Source of the DNA: Pseudomonadaceae bacterium
GTDB taxonomy: Bacteria > Pseudomonadota > Gammaproteobacteria > Pseudomonadales > Azotimanducaceae
Assembly: GCA_024743175.1 (NCBI GenBank)
Contig: JANSXA010000003.1
Coordinates: forward strand, 434,001 to 498,000
Length of the DNA stretch: 64,000 bases
Direction: 5' to 3'
Shown: piece by piece, positions 5,659-51,000 of the stretch
How positions within the stretch are numbered: position 1 is the first letter of the stretch
How the letters are laid out: every line of letters begins with the position of its first letter
Notes under the pieces: generated by a model
The model's database searches: none
Seen by the model: only the letters and a program-made list of their open reading frames with translations
Told to the model about the DNA's origin: nothing
Made by a program: the position numbers and the translations under genes

Positions 5659-6274
5659 CTGCAACAACGACTGTTGCGCGATTATCTACTGATATTTTTA
5701 GTTCCGGACCACCCGGGTAAAGCAGCAGGGACGCATCGCCATCCAGCCGGGCGGTTTGAATTTTTTTTCCGTCCAATTCTGTGCCATTGGCGCTGCCCAT
5801 GTCGACAATCTGCCAATGCCCGTTGACCTGTTCGAATTTTACGTGGTGGCGTGACACCATCGGATCGGAAATCTGCAGCGCGCAGTCGTCGTCGCGTCCG
5901 ACCACAAAGTCCCTTGAAAATGTTTGGCTGCGACCCTGCCAGGTTGCGGTGACCGGAGGCATTATTGGGTCTCCTGCCAGAATAGTCATCTGTCCAGTCG
6001 GGTTTCTAGGGCCAAGATCGCGTTGCAGACCCGTCTTATCAAGTTCAAAAACCCAGGCAATCACAATGACGACAGGCGTGAGTGAGAAAATAGCTACAAG
6101 AAAGTAGCGCGATGCCCAGTCCGGGAAATCCAGAGCAGCAAAAATGTCCGGAGCGCCGGCTGAAAGACCCCAGGCCGCAGCCAGGTAAAAACTTGTTACC
6201 TAGAAAACTTTGCGTCGTTTTAGCTCACCCCAAAAAATCTGAATGCGCCTGGATGCCTTAGTTCTAACTTTCAT
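5651..6274 (-). pseudogene. FHA-domain membrane protein gene interrupted by an in-frame amber codon
   Basis: Reading from ATG 6274 the frame encodes FWGELKRRKVF, then TAG at 6202-6200, then continues in the same frame with VTSFYLAAAWGLSAGAPD, a hydrophobic segment, AWVFELDKTGLQRD and a C-terminal FHA domain (VVGRDDDCALQISDP, SRHHVKF, DMGSANGTELDG). The N-terminal LKRRKV...AW-FELT-type unit is the membrane module found in front of many proteobacterial signalling proteins, so both sides of the TAG belong to one 207-residue protein. A GTG at 6064 could restart translation but would cut the membrane segment. Either a recent nonsense mutation, a sequencing error or suppression. Confidence 0.82.
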
Positions 6275-6419
6275 TTACGACATGTGCTGCTTTCTCGATT
6301 TCAAGAGGCTAAGCGTGTTCGCAGCTGATGACAAGAGTTACGCGTTAAGCGACGAGATAGAGACGTATGGTGCTGTCACGTTTTAGTATAGGCTGCGGTT
6401 TTGTTCAGAAGAAGTGCAG

Positions 6420-7763
6420 ATGCAAAAGCCACGTTTTATCCTCGGTAAACTGTCCACCCTCCTGCTGGTCGCGCTGACATCGCTGGCAAGTGTCCACGCA
6501 AACAACGAACTGGCTCAGGCCATCGAAAACGATTACGCCGAACATCTGGAGCAACTGTTCGACCATTTTCACCGCAATCCAGAGCTTTCTCTGCTGGAGA
6601 CGAAAACCGCCGCGCGAATGGCAGAAGAGCTGCGGGCTGCTGGCTTTGACGTTACCGAAGACGTGGGTGGCACCGGTGTCATTGCCATGCTCGAGAACGG
6701 CCCTGGTCCGATGGTAATGATGCGTGCGGACATGGACGGCCTGCCAGTGGAGGAAAAATCCGGTCTTGAGAACGCTTCAAAAGCTACCCAGACGGATCCC
6801 ATCACGGGCAATCTGGTGCCAGTCATGCATGCCTGCGGTCACGATGTCCATATCACCAGCCTGGTTGGTACTGCGCGCCAGATGGTCGCGCGCAAACATG
6901 CATGGTCTGGCAAGCTGATGCTGTTGGTTCAACCGGCAGAAGAACGGGTACTGGGCGCGCGAGCGATGAAAGAAGACCGCCTGTGGGAGCGCTTCGGGCA
7001 ACCTGATTACGCCTTGGCCTTTCATGTTTCGTCAGAGTTCGAGGCGGGCAAAATTAATGTTATCGACGGCAGCCCTTACGCCGGAGCAGACACAGTGGAT
7101 ATACGCATTTACGGGATCGGGGCGCATGGTGCTTCGCCACATGCAGGTAAAGACCCGGTGCTGTTAGGCAGCCAGATTGTGGTTGCGTTGCAGACCCTTG
7201 TTGCAAGGGAATTGTCCCCGCGCGACCCAGGCGTTGTAACCGTCGGCTCCTTCCATGCAGGCTCGAAACACAACATTATTTCTGACTATGCTCATCTGCA
7301 GTTGACGGTTCGTAACACCAGTCCTGCGACGCGCGCCACGTTGCTCGAAGGTATTGAGCGCATTGCGGTCAATATGGGTCGGGTTGCAGGTCTTCCTGAA
7401 GATTTGTTGCCCGAAGTTGTTATTTCAGAAGAAAGCGTTCCGCCCACTACCAACAACTCGAAGCTGACCCAAAGGCTGCAAGGCGCATGGATTGAAAAAA
7501 TGGGTGAGAACGCCGTCATGAGTGTTGGTACCAAGGGCATGGGTGCTGAAGACTTCCCTTTCTTCACCACCGAACCTTACATTCCCAGCGTGTACTGGGC
7601 CATTGGTGGTACACCAAAGGAAGTCATCGAATATGCTGCGGCTGGCGGCCCACCCGTCCCCAGCCACCACTCACCATTGTTCAAAATCAGTCCTTCGCCG
7701 TCAGTACAACGAGGTGTTGAATCAACCGTGGTTGCACTCGAAGAGCTTCTGCAAACAAAATAG
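6420..7763 (+). CDS. M20-family amidohydrolase (exported)
   Basis: About 447 residues, with an N-terminal signal peptide ending near SLASVHA. The M20D/IAL-type metal motifs are present: HACGHDVH near residue 140, PAEE near 175, and the HGASPHAG dimerisation-domain motif. The family hydrolyses N-acyl amino acids or related amides in a di-metal site. ATG 6420 is chosen over GTG 6414 because AGAAG lies 6-10 bases ahead. Its stop directly abuts the stop of the convergent gene. Signal peptide implies periplasmic action, unusual compared with cytoplasmic hippurate hydrolases. Confidence 0.9.
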   Translation: MQKPRFILGKLSTLLLVALTSLASVHANNELAQAIENDYAEHLEQLFDHFHRNPELSLLETKTAARMAEELRAAGFDVTEDVGGTGVIAMLENGPGPMVMMRADMDGLPVEEKSGLENASKATQTDPITGNLVPVMHACGHDVHITSLVGTARQMVARKHAWSGKLMLLVQPAEERVLGARAMKEDRLWERFGQPDYALAFHVSSEFEAGKINVIDGSPYAGADTVDIRIYGIGAHGASPHAGKDPVLLGSQIVVALQTLVARELSPRDPGVVTVGSFHAGSKHNIISDYAHLQLTVRNTSPATRATLLEGIERIAVNMGRVAGLPEDLLPEVVISEESVPPTTNNSKLTQRLQGAWIEKMGENAVMSVGTKGMGAEDFPFFTTEPYIPSVYWAIGGTPKEVIEYAAAGGPPVPSHHSPLFKISPSPSVQRGVESTVVALEELLQTK

Positions 7764-8831
7764 TCAGTCTTCTCCTGAGGCAAGTGTTTCAGCTTCAAGC
7801 AAGCGCGCACCACGGAGTATGTTGCCAACAGCGTAGTTGCCCTCGTGGCAGGCGTATTCATAAACGCGCTCCTCAGGCCTTGTTGTCGCCGGCCAGACGA
7901 AATCACCCTGCCATGGCTCGGTCCACATACCCGGATCGTTAACCGTAAACTCATAGCGCAGGGAATCAGCGTCGATGCGAGTGAAGCGTTCAACGACATG
8001 TAATGTGGGGGTGGTGGAAATAAAACCCCAGTAGCCTTTGAAGTTTGTCGTGTCGACAACCAGGGTGTCTCCTTCCCACCAGCCGATGGAATCACCCAGC
8101 CAGAACTTCATATGCTCAGGCAGGTGTTCGGAATTCATCCGCACAACGCGAGCGTCATGAACCATCTCGTTGAGAATCATCACTTCGTCTTCGGTCTGCA
8201 CAATCCGATGCAGGTTGTTGTAGATCGACGGCAGTGCGGGCACTGCACCTCGGAAACTCGCCACACACCGGTCAGAGGCCAGGAGACGTTCCGGATGATC
8301 GAAGGGCCCGGGTCGGTCCCACTCTAACCAGTACGCGCTACCGTCGTTGTGGGTCAGCTGGTCTGCAACAATTCTCTGTCCCTCTATGGCCTCTGGTGTT
8401 AACGGTGGTTGGCGCCCGTCAGAGGGTTCAGTAATGATTGAGGTTCGGAACTTCCCCTCTACCAATGACATTGAATCGCCTGGATCAACCCAGAAACTAT
8501 TGTAGCCACCAACGTTACCACCCGCACCGCCTGTGCCGTCACCCCCTGCAGGCGGCGCACCACGATCAGGGTCGCTCGGCGCATCTGCGGCGGCTGTTCT
8601 TTCAGCGCGCATCTTTACGATCTTCTCAGCTTCTTCGGGGGTCATGTAAAGCGACTCGCCGAACTCTTCGGGTCTTTGAACGGGCGTGAGTGTGGCGATG
8701 TCGTAAGTACCGCTGAGGTCAGGCTTACCATTTTGTGTGCGAGGCATTTCACGCTCACCGGCCCAGAGCGGAGTGTTCAGAAGAAGTACCGCAACAGCGA
8801 ACAGTGGATAAAATAGAATGTTGATGCGCAT
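7764..8831 (-). CDS. Secreted protein of unknown function (PDLSGTYD type)
   Basis: A 355-residue protein with a clear signal peptide (hydrophobic stretch ending PLWAGE). It shows the opening TQNGKPDLSGTYDIATLTP, a glycine-rich linker around residues 94-112, and a C-terminal beta-rich region with WWEGDTLVVDTTNFKG and ERFTRIDADSLRYEFTV. Similar GKPDLSG..W / FKG proteins are frequent in marine gammaproteobacteria and Acidobacteria but have no known function. It lies 76 bases downstream of the phytanoyl-CoA dioxygenase gene on the same strand and may be the last gene of that operon. Confidence 0.82.
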   Translation of the reverse strand: MRINILFYPLFAVAVLLLNTPLWAGEREMPRTQNGKPDLSGTYDIATLTPVQRPEEFGESLYMTPEEAEKIVKMRAERTAAADAPSDPDRGAPPAGGDGTGGAGGNVGGYNSFWVDPGDSMSLVEGKFRTSIITEPSDGRQPPLTPEAIEGQRIVADQLTHNDGSAYWLEWDRPGPFDHPERLLASDRCVASFRGAVPALPSIYNNLHRIVQTEDEVMILNEMVHDARVVRMNSEHLPEHMKFWLGDSIGWWEGDTLVVDTTNFKGYWGFISTTPTLHVVERFTRIDADSLRYEFTVNDPGMWTEPWQGDFVWPATTRPEERVYEYACHEGNYAVGNILRGARLLEAETLASGED

Positions 8832-12531: not shown

Positions 12532-13472
12532 TGCGGCCGTACCTTGGGATTAAAGTAGCCGTAGGAAATATCAACCAGGAGGTTGATTAACACGGCGACA
12601 AACACTGCGAGGATCACCACACCCTGTATCATCGGCAGGTCCCGGGTGAACACCGAGGCCACTGCAAGCTGACCGATACCAGGCATGCCGAATACCTGTT
12701 CCACAATGATGGTGCCACCCAGCAGTGCATTGGCCTGCACGCCTAGAATCGTCACCATGGGAATGGCGGCATTTTTCAAACCATGCTTTATGACCACACT
12801 GCGTTTCAACAACCCTTTGGCCTGGGCAGTACGAATGTAGTCCTGCTGCATTACATCCACCATGGCACCGCGTAACTGACGGGTTAGAATAGCGGCGGCG
12901 GAGAAGCCGAGGGTAAATGACGGCAGTGCGATGTGTGACCACCACTGCAGCACGCCTTCTGATAAAGCGGCGTAGCCGGTGGCGGGAAACCACGCATGGC
13001 GGATGGCGAAGAGCAGCGCGAGCATCAGACCCAGCCAGAAATTCGGAATCGCAAGGCCAGCTGAAGCGCCTACGGTGACGATCCTGTCGAGCAGGCTGCC
13101 AGGACGTGTGCCAGCCAGAACGCCGGCGGGCACGGCAATAAGCAGGGCAATGATAATGGCTGCACCGGCGAGGGACAGCGTGACGGGCAAACGCTGTAAC
13201 AGCACCCCTGAAACGGACTGGTCAGAAAACAACGATGTACCTAAGTCTCCCTGCAGTAAACCGACCAGCCAGTGGCCATAACGCACCAGCACCGGTTCGT
13301 TCAAACCCAGCTCCTCGCGGATGCGCTCCACGGTTTCTTCAGACGCGTCCTCGCCAGCCAGCAGATAGGCAGGATCGCCGGGTATGAGCAGCACCATGGA
13401 AAACACCAGCAGCGATACCACCAGCAGCAGTGGGATCATGGCGAGCAGGCGTTCTGCAATGAATCTGAACAT
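12528..13472 (-). CDS. ABC transporter permease, DppB/OppB type
   Basis: 314 residues. The family opening (MFRFIAERLLAMIPLLLVVS), the GDPAYLLAGEDAS and LGLNEPVLVRYGHWL segments and the EAA-type loop (TAQAKGLLKRSVVIKHGLKN) are all recognisable. Its ATG overlaps the last base of the substrate-binding protein gene, placing it second in the operon. Confidence 0.95.
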   Translation of the reverse strand: MFRFIAERLLAMIPLLLVVSLLVFSMVLLIPGDPAYLLAGEDASEETVERIREELGLNEPVLVRYGHWLVGLLQGDLGTSLFSDQSVSGVLLQRLPVTLSLAGAAIIIALLIAVPAGVLAGTRPGSLLDRIVTVGASAGLAIPNFWLGLMLALLFAIRHAWFPATGYAALSEGVLQWWSHIALPSFTLGFSAAAILTRQLRGAMVDVMQQDYIRTAQAKGLLKRSVVIKHGLKNAAIPMVTILGVQANALLGGTIIVEQVFGMPGIGQLAVASVFTRDLPMIQGVVILAVFVAVLINLLVDISYGYFNPKVRPQ

Positions 13473-15016
13473 CAGCGCCGTATCCTCACGCCGCGAAATT
13501 CGGGTTTGTTACCTGAGGCCCAAACCCGCATACCTTCCACTTCCGGGCGTAGAGCGAATGTAGAAGAGGGTAAATACAGCACCAGATCCAGTGCCTGACG
13601 GGCAATCTCTGCCGCGGCAGCCTGCAGCTGTGTCGGCCGCTGCTGCGGATCAATTTCCTGCCGCGCAAGTTGTGCCAGAACCATCAGTTCGGGTGTGCTG
13701 TGTCCACCGGGGTTGGGTAGTGAGCCCGGAGTGAAGAGCAGGTCGATGGTTTGTGACGGGTCCGGACGACCACCCCAGGTCACCAGCGCGGCGTCACCTT
13801 CCGATGTGCCGTAAAAGCGTTCGCTGATTTGTGCGCCTTCCAGAACCCAGGGAATTGCGGTCACGCCAATTTCGGCGAACTGGTACTGAAGCACTTCGAA
13901 CAATGGCATGTAGCTGGGAATATTCGGCACGATCAACTCGAAGCTGAAGCCCTCTTTCAGACCGGCCTCAGCCAGCAATGTGCGCGCCCGGTCTGGATCA
14001 TAGTTGTAGTAGTCGGCCCCTGTTGCGGCATCATGCGCCATATAGCCGATGGGAAAGTGCTGGGCTGAAGCTTCGCCGTAGCCAAAACTCAGCGCCCGCA
14101 CCAGTGATTTGCGGTCCACTGCATGGTTAAGAGCCTGGCGCACCCGCTTGTCGGAGAATTTGGACCGGTTCCGGTTCAGCTGCATGTGCAGCACTTCAAG
14201 GCCGACGCCTGTTTGCACTTGCAGGTTGTAGCGTCGCGCCTGTTCAATCTGCAGGGTACCAATTGTTGTGCCATCCACCTGTCCGGAACGTACGGCATTG
14301 AGGCGGGTGGTGGTATCTGGCGTGAGCACCAGCTGCAGGCGCTGCACGCCAGCATCTTCAGGCGCCCAGTAGTCATCGAAACGCTCGTACACCGAGCGGT
14401 TGCCGAGTAAGAATTCCACGTGCCGGAAGGGTCCTGCGCCTACTCCTTTAAGATCCAGGCCGCCAGCCCGCAGCGCCTGCGGACTGACCATCATGCCCGC
14501 TCGGTCGGAGAGAATAAGTGGCAGTGCAGCATCTGGAGCGTCGAGATGTAACCGCACGTGTAACGGATCGATGATTTCCACGCGCTGGATGTGTTTGAGC
14601 TCTGCTTTCACGGCACTGCCAAGCACGGTTTTTGCGCGCTCGATGTTAATGGCCACAGCTTCGGCGGTGAACGGTTCACCATCGTGAAAGGTCACTCCCG
14701 GGCGTAAATCAAGATCCAGCCAGGCACCGTTTGGACCAAATCGCCAGGCACGCGCCAGGCCCGGCACTGCGGTACCTGCAGGGCTCATGTGGATGAGCCG
14801 ATCATAGACCGGAAACAACCAGGTATTGTCGTAGCTTGAAGTTGCCCGATGTGGATCGAAGCGCGTGACGCCTGATGCCAAAGCAAAGGTTGCCGTAGCG
14901 TTCGGGTCGACCTTGGCATTGGGATTGTACTGCGGCAACTCGGGCCCACACCCGGCCAGCGTGGACAGGAGTAACAACACGATGCACAGATCGCGCAGGC
15001 ATGTGTTCAGCGCCAT
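13472..15016 (-). CDS. ABC transporter substrate-binding lipoprotein (SBP family 5)
   Basis: 514 residues from ATG 15016, chosen because it yields a compact lipoprotein signal peptide ending in the lipobox LAGC; an upstream in-frame ATG at 15046 adds ten polar residues. The body is a family 5 extracellular solute-binding protein (TFALASGVTRFDPHRA, RPGVTFHDGEPFTAEAV, LNHAVDRKSLVRAL). First gene of the importer operon; it is a periplasmic lipid-anchored receptor for peptides or another amphipathic solute. Confidence 0.93.
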   Translation of the reverse strand: MALNTCLRDLCIVLLLLSTLAGCGPELPQYNPNAKVDPNATATFALASGVTRFDPHRATSSYDNTWLFPVYDRLIHMSPAGTAVPGLARAWRFGPNGAWLDLDLRPGVTFHDGEPFTAEAVAINIERAKTVLGSAVKAELKHIQRVEIIDPLHVRLHLDAPDAALPLILSDRAGMMVSPQALRAGGLDLKGVGAGPFRHVEFLLGNRSVYERFDDYWAPEDAGVQRLQLVLTPDTTTRLNAVRSGQVDGTTIGTLQIEQARRYNLQVQTGVGLEVLHMQLNRNRSKFSDKRVRQALNHAVDRKSLVRALSFGYGEASAQHFPIGYMAHDAATGADYYNYDPDRARTLLAEAGLKEGFSFELIVPNIPSYMPLFEVLQYQFAEIGVTAIPWVLEGAQISERFYGTSEGDAALVTWGGRPDPSQTIDLLFTPGSLPNPGGHSTPELMVLAQLARQEIDPQQRPTQLQAAAAEIARQALDLVLYLPSSTFALRPEVEGMRVWASGNKPEFRGVRIRR

Positions 15017-48148: not shown

Positions 48149-48661
48149 ATGGTCCGTAAGTTATTTGCTGTACTGTTTATAGCCATGGCGAGCTCAGGAT
48201 TCGCAGAAAGTGAAGCCTCCAAAATCCAAAGCACAATTGATCAGACGGTGTGGAAGACCTTCCAGGCTGCCTTTGAAGCTTTAGACGGCGAGGCGCTTAA
48301 CTCGGTGTACGCGGATGAGGTGCTGCGGGTTACGCCGGAAGGATTGGATGTGACGCAACGGTTTAAAAAAACAAACCAGACGCGATTTCTGGAAAATCGG
48401 CAAAAAGGTGAAGGTGTTGCGCTGGATTTCTGGTTCGATACCCGCCATACCAACGCAGGAGTTTCTTACGATACTGGTTTTTATCGTGTCACGGTGACGT
48501 CCCCAAATGGAGAGCAATCCTACGCATACGGTCAATTCCACATCGTGTTAAAGAATATCGAAGGCCAATGGAAAATTGTGCAGGATTGGGACACAGCAAA
48601 GATTGGTGGTCAGCCTATCACTGAGGACGATTTTAATCGGCGGCAGCCTGTCAGGTTCTGA
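48149..48661 (+). CDS. Secreted NTF2-like (SnoaL/DUF4440 type) protein
   Basis: 170 residues from ATG 48149 (AAGAAGG upstream); a longer frame reaches 47942 but that part overlaps the kinase. Signal peptide ends SSGFAES. The mature part has the NTF2 pattern: a first helix TFQAAFEALDGEALNSVYADE and final strands GQFHIVLKNIEGQWKIVQDWD. Usual role of such secreted forms is unknown. Confidence 0.85.
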   Translation: MVRKLFAVLFIAMASSGFAESEASKIQSTIDQTVWKTFQAAFEALDGEALNSVYADEVLRVTPEGLDVTQRFKKTNQTRFLENRQKGEGVALDFWFDTRHTNAGVSYDTGFYRVTVTSPNGEQSYAYGQFHIVLKNIEGQWKIVQDWDTAKIGGQPITEDDFNRRQPVRF

Positions 48662-48733: not shown

Positions 48734-49345
48734 ATGCCGACACCTATCGAGCTGGAAATCTTCACGGACTATATATGACCCTGGTGTTATCTCAGTACCG
48801 GGCGTATTGAAAAACTCAGAGCTGAATTTGATATCAATGTGACCTGGGTGCATTTTCCATTGCACCCTGAAACGCCAGACGCTGGCATCAGCATAGAAGA
48901 ACTGTTTGCCGGGCGCGATATCGACATTGAAGCCATGTATACGCGCATGAAAAGTTTGATGGACGAAGAAAACCTGCCCTACGGTCGGCGCACACATACC
49001 TACAACAGCCGTCTGGCCCAGGAACTGGGCAAGTGGGCGGAGACGCAAGCCGGTGGTGAGGCTATACACGAAGCCTTGTATAAAGCGTACTTTGTTGACG
49101 GTCTGAATATCGCGGAACCGGATGTCCTGGTTGATATAGCAGCCGCTGTTGGCCTGCCAGCCGAAGCAGCGCGGGCGGTGCTGGATACGCGTAGTTTCAA
49201 GTCAGCAGTAGATGCGGATTGGGCTAAGTCACGACAGTACGGAGTGACCGGTGTACCCACGTTTGTCGCAGGGGGTTACGGCGTTGTAGGTGCGCAACCT
49301 TATGAAACCCTGGTCGCATTGATGGAGCAGGTTTCCCCCCCATAA
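48734..49345 (+). CDS. DsbA/FrnE-like thiol oxidoreductase with UGA at the active site, probable selenoprotein
   Basis: 203 residues if UGA is read. From ATG 48734 the frame gives MPTPIELEIFTDYI, then TGA (48776-48778), then PWCYLSTGRIEKL and the rest of a FrnE/DsbA-family protein without frame change (QYGVTGVPTFVAGG near the C-terminus is the cis-Pro region). In this family the position is the first Cys of CPWC, so the motif would be U-P-W-C. A candidate SECIS hairpin lies at 48792-48810. The protein has no signal peptide, so it would act in the cytoplasm. Alternative: a disrupted gene translated from a later start. Confidence 0.85.
48792..48810 (+). promoter_or_regulatory. Candidate bacterial SECIS element
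   Basis: Hairpin TCAGTAC-CGGGC-GTATTGA: 7 base pairs (one G-U) and a 5-base loop with G in its second position. The loop begins 20 bases after the UGA, inside the range known for bacterial SECIS elements, where SelB binds a short stem-loop just downstream of the Sec codon. Confidence 0.65.
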
Positions 49346-49389: not shown

Positions 49390-51000
49390 TCAGTAACTTT
49401 CCCGTATCAATTCAAACAGGGGGTCCAGGTAGATTCGGCGTTCGACCGGCAGGTATTGAAAGTTGACACCCAGATCAGACAGCTCCCAGAATTGTTCTCG
49501 ATCATCTGCCAGCATGATCTGACGCAGACGTTCGAGCCGTTCAAACCGCTCTCCGCGTAGGTCCCGTGCAATTCGCTTTGCCCTTGTATCATCGCCGTGC
49601 ATGAGAAACAGCGTCGCTAACTGAACTTGCGCTCGACGAACGCCGAGCAGGCTGGATTCCTGCAATTCAACATTTTCCTCTTTGATCTCGATGTCGAGGT
49701 TCAACAGACAGTCAAGCAGCGCATCCAAACTGTCAGATTTTTCCTGAATGGCCTTCTCAACAAGGCGCATGACGTAAAATGCCGCGCTTTCCAGTAAGAA
49801 CGAAGCGCCGGTATTGTGCGCATACTGTCCATATATGCGCAGGTAATCGGCTACTTCCTCGCACTTTTTACCCTGCCCATTAACCAGCAGCCATTCGGCG
49901 ATTAAACGATATTGATTCATCAAATAATAGGCGGTGCGTCGGTCACCAGCGTTTATCGTCTCTCGCAGGTAACTGTTAAAGACACTGATGGAAAGGTCCA
50001 GCAACCATGGTCTGTTGCCACTGAAACCTGTTGCAATGCGCTGGGTGTTGATGCCAATGAGGTTGGCGACATCACGCTCCCGCATCGCAGCCTGGCCCAT
50101 CAGCGATAAATAGCGGCGGAATACCTTCCGTTCCACCCAGATACCCTGATCTTCGATCGTCGCAATTGTTTCTGGAGCCAGTGCTATGAAGTCTGCATCC
50201 TCTGCAACGCCCCGGCTCATATCAAACCACTCATTGGGTAGTTCGTCGCGGATCTGCACATAGTCGATAACAAAGCCAGCCAGCGCATTTACTGCTGCTA
50301 TGGCAATACCGCGATCACTTTGCTGAATGGCGCTGCGCGCGACGTCTTGCAATTCATCGATGGCTTCTTCTACCCGCTCTTGATTGTGTTTTATTGAGGA
50401 CGCTCGAGCTCTAAGCACCATGCGGTAGGCATCACGACATATTTTGTCGATGACGCTGATAGGTGACAAAAAGGCAAACACAAAATAGATATAAGGTATC
50501 AGGAGCAGCAGACACAGTGTGACCAGGGTCAGGGTGATCGCGAAACCAGCTTGTGGCAGCACCGCATGCGGACCGCTGGAATCCAAGGCAGCGGCAATCC
50601 ATATACATTGCACTGTCGTTACGACAAATATACCCAGTACGGCAAGATTAACCGGCTCTCGCAGGAACAGTCGGGTGATTTGATGGCTGTATCGAGTAGC
50701 GGCCAGTTCGACTACGATTGCCACCACGGTGATTGCAATCGCAAGTACTGCAGCGACCACTTCTGCAGCGCTGGAAAGCGTGTCTAATGCTGCCTGAGTA
50801 TCCAAACTCACCAGCCATGCGATAGGCCGCAATACAACGTCGAGAGATGTGTCACCTAAAACCGCCTGGAAGAATAGCACCAGCAGGCAAACAGCAGATA
50901 AGCCGAAAAAAAGCAGCGCAGGCACTTTGAGTGGTCGGTAAGTCGAGTGTCGAGGACTTTGTTTGATCATGCACGCAGAGTGCAGCAATTGCAGGGTCAT
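49390..51000 (-). CDS. DUF2254-like inner-membrane protein (second copy)
   Basis: 536 residues; ATG 51000 used, ATG 50970 also possible. Four hydrophobic segments are visible: LLFFGLSAVCLLVLFFQAVL, VVAAVLAIAITVVAIVVELA, LAVLGIFVVTTVQCIWIAAAL and a fourth before FAFLSPISVID. The AATRYSHQITRLFLREP loop corresponds to the SNIGPRLIDNFMRD loop of the 17229 protein. A long helical C-terminal part follows. Function unknown. Confidence 0.75.
   Translation of the reverse strand: MTLQLLHSACMIKQSPRHSTYRPLKVPALLFFGLSAVCLLVLFFQAVLGDTSLDVVLRPIAWLVSLDTQAALDTLSSAAEVVAAVLAIAITVVAIVVELAATRYSHQITRLFLREPVNLAVLGIFVVTTVQCIWIAAALDSSGPHAVLPQAGFAITLTLVTLCLLLLIPYIYFVFAFLSPISVIDKICRDAYRMVLRARASSIKHNQERVEEAIDELQDVARSAIQQSDRGIAIAAVNALAGFVIDYVQIRDELPNEWFDMSRGVAEDADFIALAPETIATIEDQGIWVERKVFRRYLSLMGQAAMRERDVANLIGINTQRIATGFSGNRPWLLDLSISVFNSYLRETINAGDRRTAYYLMNQYRLIAEWLLVNGQGKKCEEVADYLRIYGQYAHNTGASFLLESAAFYVMRLVEKAIQEKSDSLDALLDCLLNLDIEIKEENVELQESSLLGVRRAQVQLATLFLMHGDDTRAKRIARDLRGERFERLERLRQIMLADDREQFWELSDLGVNFQYLPVERRIYLDPLFELIRESY

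Follow-up and report, generated by a model that had tools for sequence, protein, structure and literature searches.

A conserved in-frame UGA and a SECIS-like hairpin mark a candidate FrnE-like selenoprotein in Azotimanducaceae

Described DsbA-like and FrnE selenoproteins and the gene in the window

DsbA-like selenoproteins with a UxxC motif have been described from Sargasso Sea data since 2005 (9 sequences, COG2761; PMC1088965) and also from sequenced bacteria (PMC1794560). In the GOS data, the group named DsbA 1 is reported with 63 selenocysteine (Sec) and 704 Cys sequences and as more abundant in marine samples, next to groups named DsbA 2 and DsbA 3 (PMC2398784). The earlier note on this DNA, made from its letters, was therefore right that Sec at CxxC motifs has been reported in marine DsbA-like proteins (PMC1088965, PMC2398784). 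A 2026 review lists a "DsbA-like protein form 1" and describes the functions of such proteins as largely uncharacterised (PMC13188914), and two DsbA-like sequences are given for Asgard archaea (PMC11227280). Among eukaryotes, Sec-containing FrnE is listed for green algae (Mamiellophyceae and Mesostigma; PMC6627142), SelenoDB 2.0 holds a Sec family named "FrnE (DsbA)" (PMC3965025), and in algae DsbA ranks with the most widespread Sec proteins (PMC7539508). In the published criterion, a bacterial SECIS is a hairpin directly downstream of the UGA with a G in a small apical loop, whereas in eukaryotic mRNAs the SECIS is located elsewhere (PMC1088965). FrnE of D. radiodurans (drFrnE) is a proposed cytoplasmic disulfide reductase whose active site is regenerated with the help of a C-terminal CX4C; this motif is found in many FrnE proteins, and some proteins are called FrnE without it (PMC8945050).

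The window analyzed here, a stretch of 64,000 nucleotides, carries on its forward strand a DsbA/FrnE-like gene of 203 residues that runs from ATG 48734 to a TAA ending at 49345. Its frame is otherwise open, and the sole in-frame TGA is codon 15 (48776 to 48778, forward strand). With TGA translated as Cys, the product matched Pfam DSBA (PF01323) at 127.5 bits (cut-off, 25.6), and the TGA fell on the first Cys of CPWC; around it the product reads MPTPIELEIFTDYI-U-PWCYLSTGR... The earlier note had claimed one frame with a lone TGA exactly at the first catalytic Cys, and our analysis confirmed this. The putative active-site motif U-P-W-C (48776 to 48787, forward strand) aligned to Cys22-Cys25 of drFrnE, and P, W, and C followed the TGA in all 119 distinct TGA sequences that we collected. 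The gene lies between a DUF4440 gene (48149 to 48661, forward strand) and a DUF2254 gene (49390 to 51000, reverse strand). For this frame, the mechanical open reading frame (ORF) list held only a GTG ORF at 48839 to 49345 (forward strand), which is without the active site and is what a Sec-blind gene caller would be expected to report; the truncation to a start near 48839 that the note had foreseen was thus borne out. A codon-usage scan of the window for TGA codons flanked in frame by coding-like sequence on both sides gave two positions, 48776 and 30680; the latter is likely the end of one gene followed by the start of another in the same frame. Rfam had no match within the window at gathering scores.

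In its features, the gene resembles the bacterial DsbA-like UxxC selenoproteins (form 1), which share the Pfam DSBA domain, the UxxC motif, a hairpin past the UGA whose small loop contains a G, and an origin in marine and other bacteria (PMC1088965, PMC2398784, PMC13188914). Among the features tested we found no difference from form 1, a likeness drawn from published descriptions; AACY01178397 and NIP15863.1 are among the published sequences. Most simply, the gene in the window would belong to these already described kinds of DsbA-like/FrnE selenoproteins. The orthologous group around it is near-fixed for Sec, compared with 63 Sec and 704 Cys sequences in DsbA 1, which is a wider set (PMC2398784). 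Eukaryotic selenoprotein FrnE is likened to it by name, as a Sec-containing FrnE/DsbA (PMC3965025, PMC6627142), but differs in its eukaryotic host and in a SECIS located elsewhere in the mRNA (PMC1088965). The D. radiodurans FrnE structures (PDB 5cnw and others) match over the full length (125 bits; fold TM 0.90) with CPWC at the position of UPWC, but drFrnE has Cys in place of Sec and a C-terminal CX4C that is absent from the window protein (PMC8945050). Full-length similarity and the same fold agree with a place in the FrnE subfamily of DsbA; the C-terminal CX4C, which it does not have, is not strictly defining for that subfamily. None of the NCBIfam models reached its cut-off for the window protein. 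The nearest, NF041057 (Rcas_1661 family thioredoxin-like (seleno)lipoprotein), is likewise thioredoxin-like and has a name that allows for Sec, but it matched the C-terminal part only, at 45.9 bits against a cut-off of 190, and we do not count the protein as a member.

Conservation of the UGA codon and of the downstream hairpin

We searched 200 genomes of the same GTDB family for homologues with Cys or Sec at this position, as the earlier note had proposed, and found TGA there, with Cys codons rare. Of 53 listed family matches (the window's own included) that span the active site at ≥39% identity, 52 have one TGA and one has TGC (genome G034, locus L068); partial matches missing the site were not counted, and the weakest family matches lie outside the list that was counted. 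A scan of contigs from other genomes returned 431 relatives, and among the best 80 the codon was TGA in 79 and TGC in one (L162). By their record titles, these 80 include Alpha-, Beta-, and Gammaproteobacteria, "Delta"- and Lambdaproteobacteria, Acidobacteria, and Rokubacteria MAGs. The contig scan is biased, in that one of its two patterns finds only Cys-coded sites and the other requires the peptide encoded by the hairpin; its query was made from TGA members, and the 80 that were kept are those nearest to the query. Distant Cys relatives may well be under-represented in it. The argument in the note that a random nonsense mutation would be unlikely to hit this codon gains from the recurrence of the same TGA in both sets.

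Below 39% identity, the full-length listed family matches were mostly free of stops and represent other DsbA paralogues, and the two inspected (L079 and L080) have CPWC. Four loci of the same GTDB family (L073 to L076, from genomes G008, G163, G169, and G087) form a distant second DSBA group at 27 to 30% identity, with one TGA in the context SDYL-U-PWCYN; this group is perhaps the published DsbA 2. Among viral contigs, no stretch fitted the search patterns, and the 826 plasmid records that matched were all below 60% identity. One record titled Klebsiella pneumoniae (a MAG; L163) holds a gene that is sister, on a starred branch, to that of a lake betaproteobacterium MAG (L165), and its title is probably wrong.

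At L162 the codon is TGC, two of the seven stem pairs are left, and a different, GC-rich fold is predicted at the site. No selB above the cut-off was found in the L162 genome; its best match (196 bits, in a 396-residue frame) is taken for EF-Tu by the size of the frame. L162 falls inside a betaproteobacterial Sec clade (99/92) in our careful tree of 44 rows, which is unrooted. At L068, also TGC, one of the seven stem pairs is left. This sequence sits on a long branch among Sec sequences (nearest placement, 83/62; wider clade, 98/92; unrooted tree), and selB is still present above the cut-off in its genome, so here the change to Cys does not go with a loss of the machinery. With the trees unrooted, both sequences are best read as putative Sec-to-Cys changes.

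The SECIS-like hairpin of the window gene occupies 48792 to 48810 on the forward strand, with its stem at 48792 to 48798 and 48804 to 48810 and its loop, CGGGC, at 48799 to 48803. It has seven pairs, one of them G-U; the stem starts 13 bases past the UGA and the loop begins 20 bases past it. Lying downstream of the UGA and having a G in its small loop, the element agrees with the bacterial SECIS criterion. The note had placed a hairpin from 48792 with its loop 20 bases after the UGA; this position holds, and the stem is conserved with paired substitutions. In 51 family sequences, distinct over the 63 bases from the TGA on (357 cells), the stem was paired in 99.4% of cells, compared with 26 to 42% when the 3' partners were slid by 1 to 3 columns. 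Both sides had changed in 8 cells, against a shuffled mean of 0.5 (0/500 shuffles as high), and the covariation score was 0.105 versus 0.044 (0/500 shuffles as high). Two of the five pair measures were unexceptional, namely, the number of pairs changed on both sides (2; 17/500 shuffles) and the number of further pair types (5; 196/500). RNAalifold predicted the same stem.

The pattern extends to the 120 distinct sequences from both searches, in which 831 of 840 cells were paired; every sequence has at least six of the seven pairs, 111 have all seven, and the second loop base is G in all 120. The mismatches are A.C in pair 19-33 (8 sequences) and U.C in pair 17-35 (1 sequence). A quick tree requires at least two changes from A-U to U-A and two from A-U to G-C in pair 19-33, and one from U-A to C-G in pair 21-31. 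Several of the paired changes also alter the protein (Ser to Cys or Gly, Ile to Val), which indicates that the RNA structure holds even where the residue does not. Codon choice, analyzed in 119 distinct sequences (the outlying L072, counted in the 120 above, was left out), is fixed most strongly inside the hairpin, with CTC for Leu in 115/117, AGT for Ser in 107/109, CGT for Arg in 83/83, and ATT for Ile in 100/117, whereas in the rest of the same genes these codons have shares of 0.19, 0.13, 0.10, and 0.27, respectively. Outside the hairpin the preference is milder (Tyr TAC, 0.88 versus 0.58 at -2; Val GTG, 0.73 versus 0.34 at +24).

A second hairpin overlaps the first at 48782 to 48800 of the window (alignment columns 7 to 13 with 19 to 25), shares the 5' arm of the SECIS, and is paired in 94.7% of cells. 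We considered this upstream fold as a competing structure and rejected it: it has no two-sided change and scored no better than shuffles (297/500 as high). Since it is without covariation, we put its pairing down to the fixed W-C-Y and hairpin codons, of which it is probably a by-product. A switch between the upstream and SECIS folds is a less likely possibility.

Selenocysteine machinery and alternative readings of the UGA

The window's genome (4.72 Mb in 18 contigs, 98% complete) encodes the genes for Sec insertion, and selA, selB, selC, and selD, for which the earlier note had suggested looking elsewhere in the genome, are all present above cut-offs. The tRNA-Sec gene scored 71.7 bits (gathering score, 47) and was also called by ARAGORN as tRNA-Sec with anticodon tca; selB (424 bits), selA (518 bits), and selD (271 bits) exceeded the curated cut-offs. 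The selA, selB, and tRNA-Sec genes adjoin on contig C7 (276126 to 279444). Some 11 kb from them, selD is part of a 725-residue frame with a further match to Nterm_to_SelD, which is a pyridine nucleotide-disulfide oxidoreductase domain. The note had held that absence of selB and tRNA-Sec would speak against its reading; both are in this genome. Altogether, the claim of a candidate selenoprotein is supported by the conserved TGA, the covarying hairpin, and these four genes.

Two side observations concern the same contig. A CSWC DsbA-like gene (L050:15345-15992, reverse strand) has a start that overlaps the end of the fused selD gene and is possibly a selD-linked redox protein. Between selABC and selD, the stretch L050:6015-13912 contains Pfam matches to a phage-type integrase (12656 to 13912, reverse strand) and a tape-measure-like protein (6015 to 7970, reverse strand), possibly a mobile element near the tRNA-Sec gene.

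Across the named records, selB was above the cut-off in 66 of the 78 searched genomes (41/49 and 25/29), a count that covers TGA-bearing genomes only, with the Cys-coded L162 set aside and L114 left out. The 12 genomes without selB above the cut-off are all MAGs, and we read these misses as probable MAG incompleteness. Within the window's GTDB family, selB was above the cut-off in 158 of 200 genomes, so common that its co-occurrence with the gene there says little. In a draw of 299 genomes from the phylum (completeness of at least 90% was asked for; the rows shown are at 98 to 100%), 43 had selB and only one, the window's own, had the protein at 1e-30, so most Sec users in this draw manage without the gene, and a lone holder is too few for comparing co-occurrence. 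A search for formate dehydrogenase as a second Sec user gave no match above the cut-off, and the five matches had no internal stop.

How the UGA is read can be judged from these data together. Were it a nonsense mutation or an assembly error, with the gene dead or starting downstream at GTG 48839, standard gene calling would yield just the truncated ORF that it does yield; but the same TGA recurs in independent genomes with intact frames on both sides, the hairpin covaries, Sec machinery is present, and the product from GTG 48839 would be without its active site. We consider this account vanishingly improbable, and a pseudogene or sequencing error is ruled out by the conserved TGA and the open frame on either side of it. 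Decoding of the UGA as another amino acid, such as Cys or Trp, through a suppressor or a changed code would fit the Cys found at this position in rare relatives. A changed code is rejected because TGA closes 14 of the 30 mechanical ORFs of at least 250 amino acids in the window, some of which are possibly spurious; moreover, only the gene at 48734 to 49345 has an internal TGA among the nine DSBA matches of the genome, tRNA-Sec and SelB are present, and a suppressor would have no need of the hairpin. Such decoding is thus highly unlikely as well. Selenocysteine at residue 15 of a FrnE-like thioredoxin fold is, in our assessment, almost certainly the correct prediction. Sequence comparison supports Sec as the reading of the UGA, and likewise the SECIS, the machinery, the fold, and where Sec sits in that fold.

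Fold, putative chemistry, and implications

An AlphaFold2 model built from a 50-sequence alignment (mean pLDDT, 88.2; pTM, 0.85) has a thioredoxin fold with a helical insert, and its first helix runs from residue 16, directly past U15. A T-G-V-P loop (49247 to 49258, forward strand), which we take to be the cis-proline loop that faces the active site in thioredoxin folds, lies in a part of the model with low local confidence (residues 171 to 180; mean pLDDT, 59); G170, V174, and P175 are invariant in the 50 aligned sequences. Foldseek placed D. radiodurans FrnE structures first (TM 0.89 to 0.90; 35 to 36% identity), followed by S. coelicolor SCO1869 (TM 0.89; 31%), with YjbH, kappa glutathione S-transferase (GST), HCCA isomerase, and DsbM at lower scores. 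A profile search also returned FrnE and SCO1869 first and aligned U15 and C18 to Cys22 and Cys25 of drFrnE.

C18 is the sole Cys of the window protein, and 88 of the 120 distinct members have no Cys beyond the active site. A C-terminal CX4C was found in 0/120 members (L035 is cut by the contig end), so regeneration must differ from that of drFrnE. From these features, we infer that the product is a cytosolic selenol-dependent disulfide oxidoreductase relying on an external reductant; the cytosolic location is probable, as no signal peptide was seen by eye. During translation, SelB with Sec-tRNA(Sec) would bind the hairpin and deliver selenocysteine at codon 15. The product would act as a stand-alone protein, its U15-P16-W17-C18 active site lying where the first helix begins. 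The U15 selenolate would then attack a disulfide or another oxidized thiol, C18 would resolve the resulting mixed selenylsulfide, and the U15-C18 pair would be restored by thioredoxin reductase or by glutathione/glutaredoxin as the cellular reductant.

Disulfide-reductase chemistry is the reading of the Sec protein that we moderately favor. The alternative is a selenoprotein that works unlike FrnE and is no general disulfide reductase: it could resemble kappa GST or HCCA isomerase, be a peroxidase, or detoxify thiols bound to metal or selenium by reducing them. This appears rather doubtful, although it draws on several observations. Kappa GST, HCCA isomerase, and the cytosolic reductase DsbM all appear in the fold search (TM 0.67 to 0.77), the CX4C past the active site is absent from every member, and the 725 neighboring ORFs of 80 loci hold no shared family that names a pathway (the best, by eye an SDR, occurs in 13/80 loci). 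On the other hand, the best full-length matches in both fold and sequence are FrnE and SCO1869, and the UxxC pair is retained in every TGA member counted.

The finding leaves the picture of Sec insertion unchanged. Annotation that ignores Sec would shorten this gene and its relatives and cost them their active site. The sequences collected here form a clearly delimited orthologous group, with a covarying SECIS and a putative natural Sec-to-Cys reversion accompanied by hairpin loss; they can serve to train Sec-aware gene finders and to study why the enzyme keeps Sec. Tentatively, these proteins could represent an old lineage within the FrnE-like proteins for which Sec is nearly obligate; Sec would then be the normal state in mostly uncultured bacteria from several phyla, and Cys an infrequent reversion. 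Sec might then be kept for a reaction, such as fast reduction of a diselenide, a selenylsulfide, or a metal-bound thiol, that proceeds without the resolving CX4C of Cys-FrnE, and this lineage may be ancestral to the Sec-FrnE of algae and animals.
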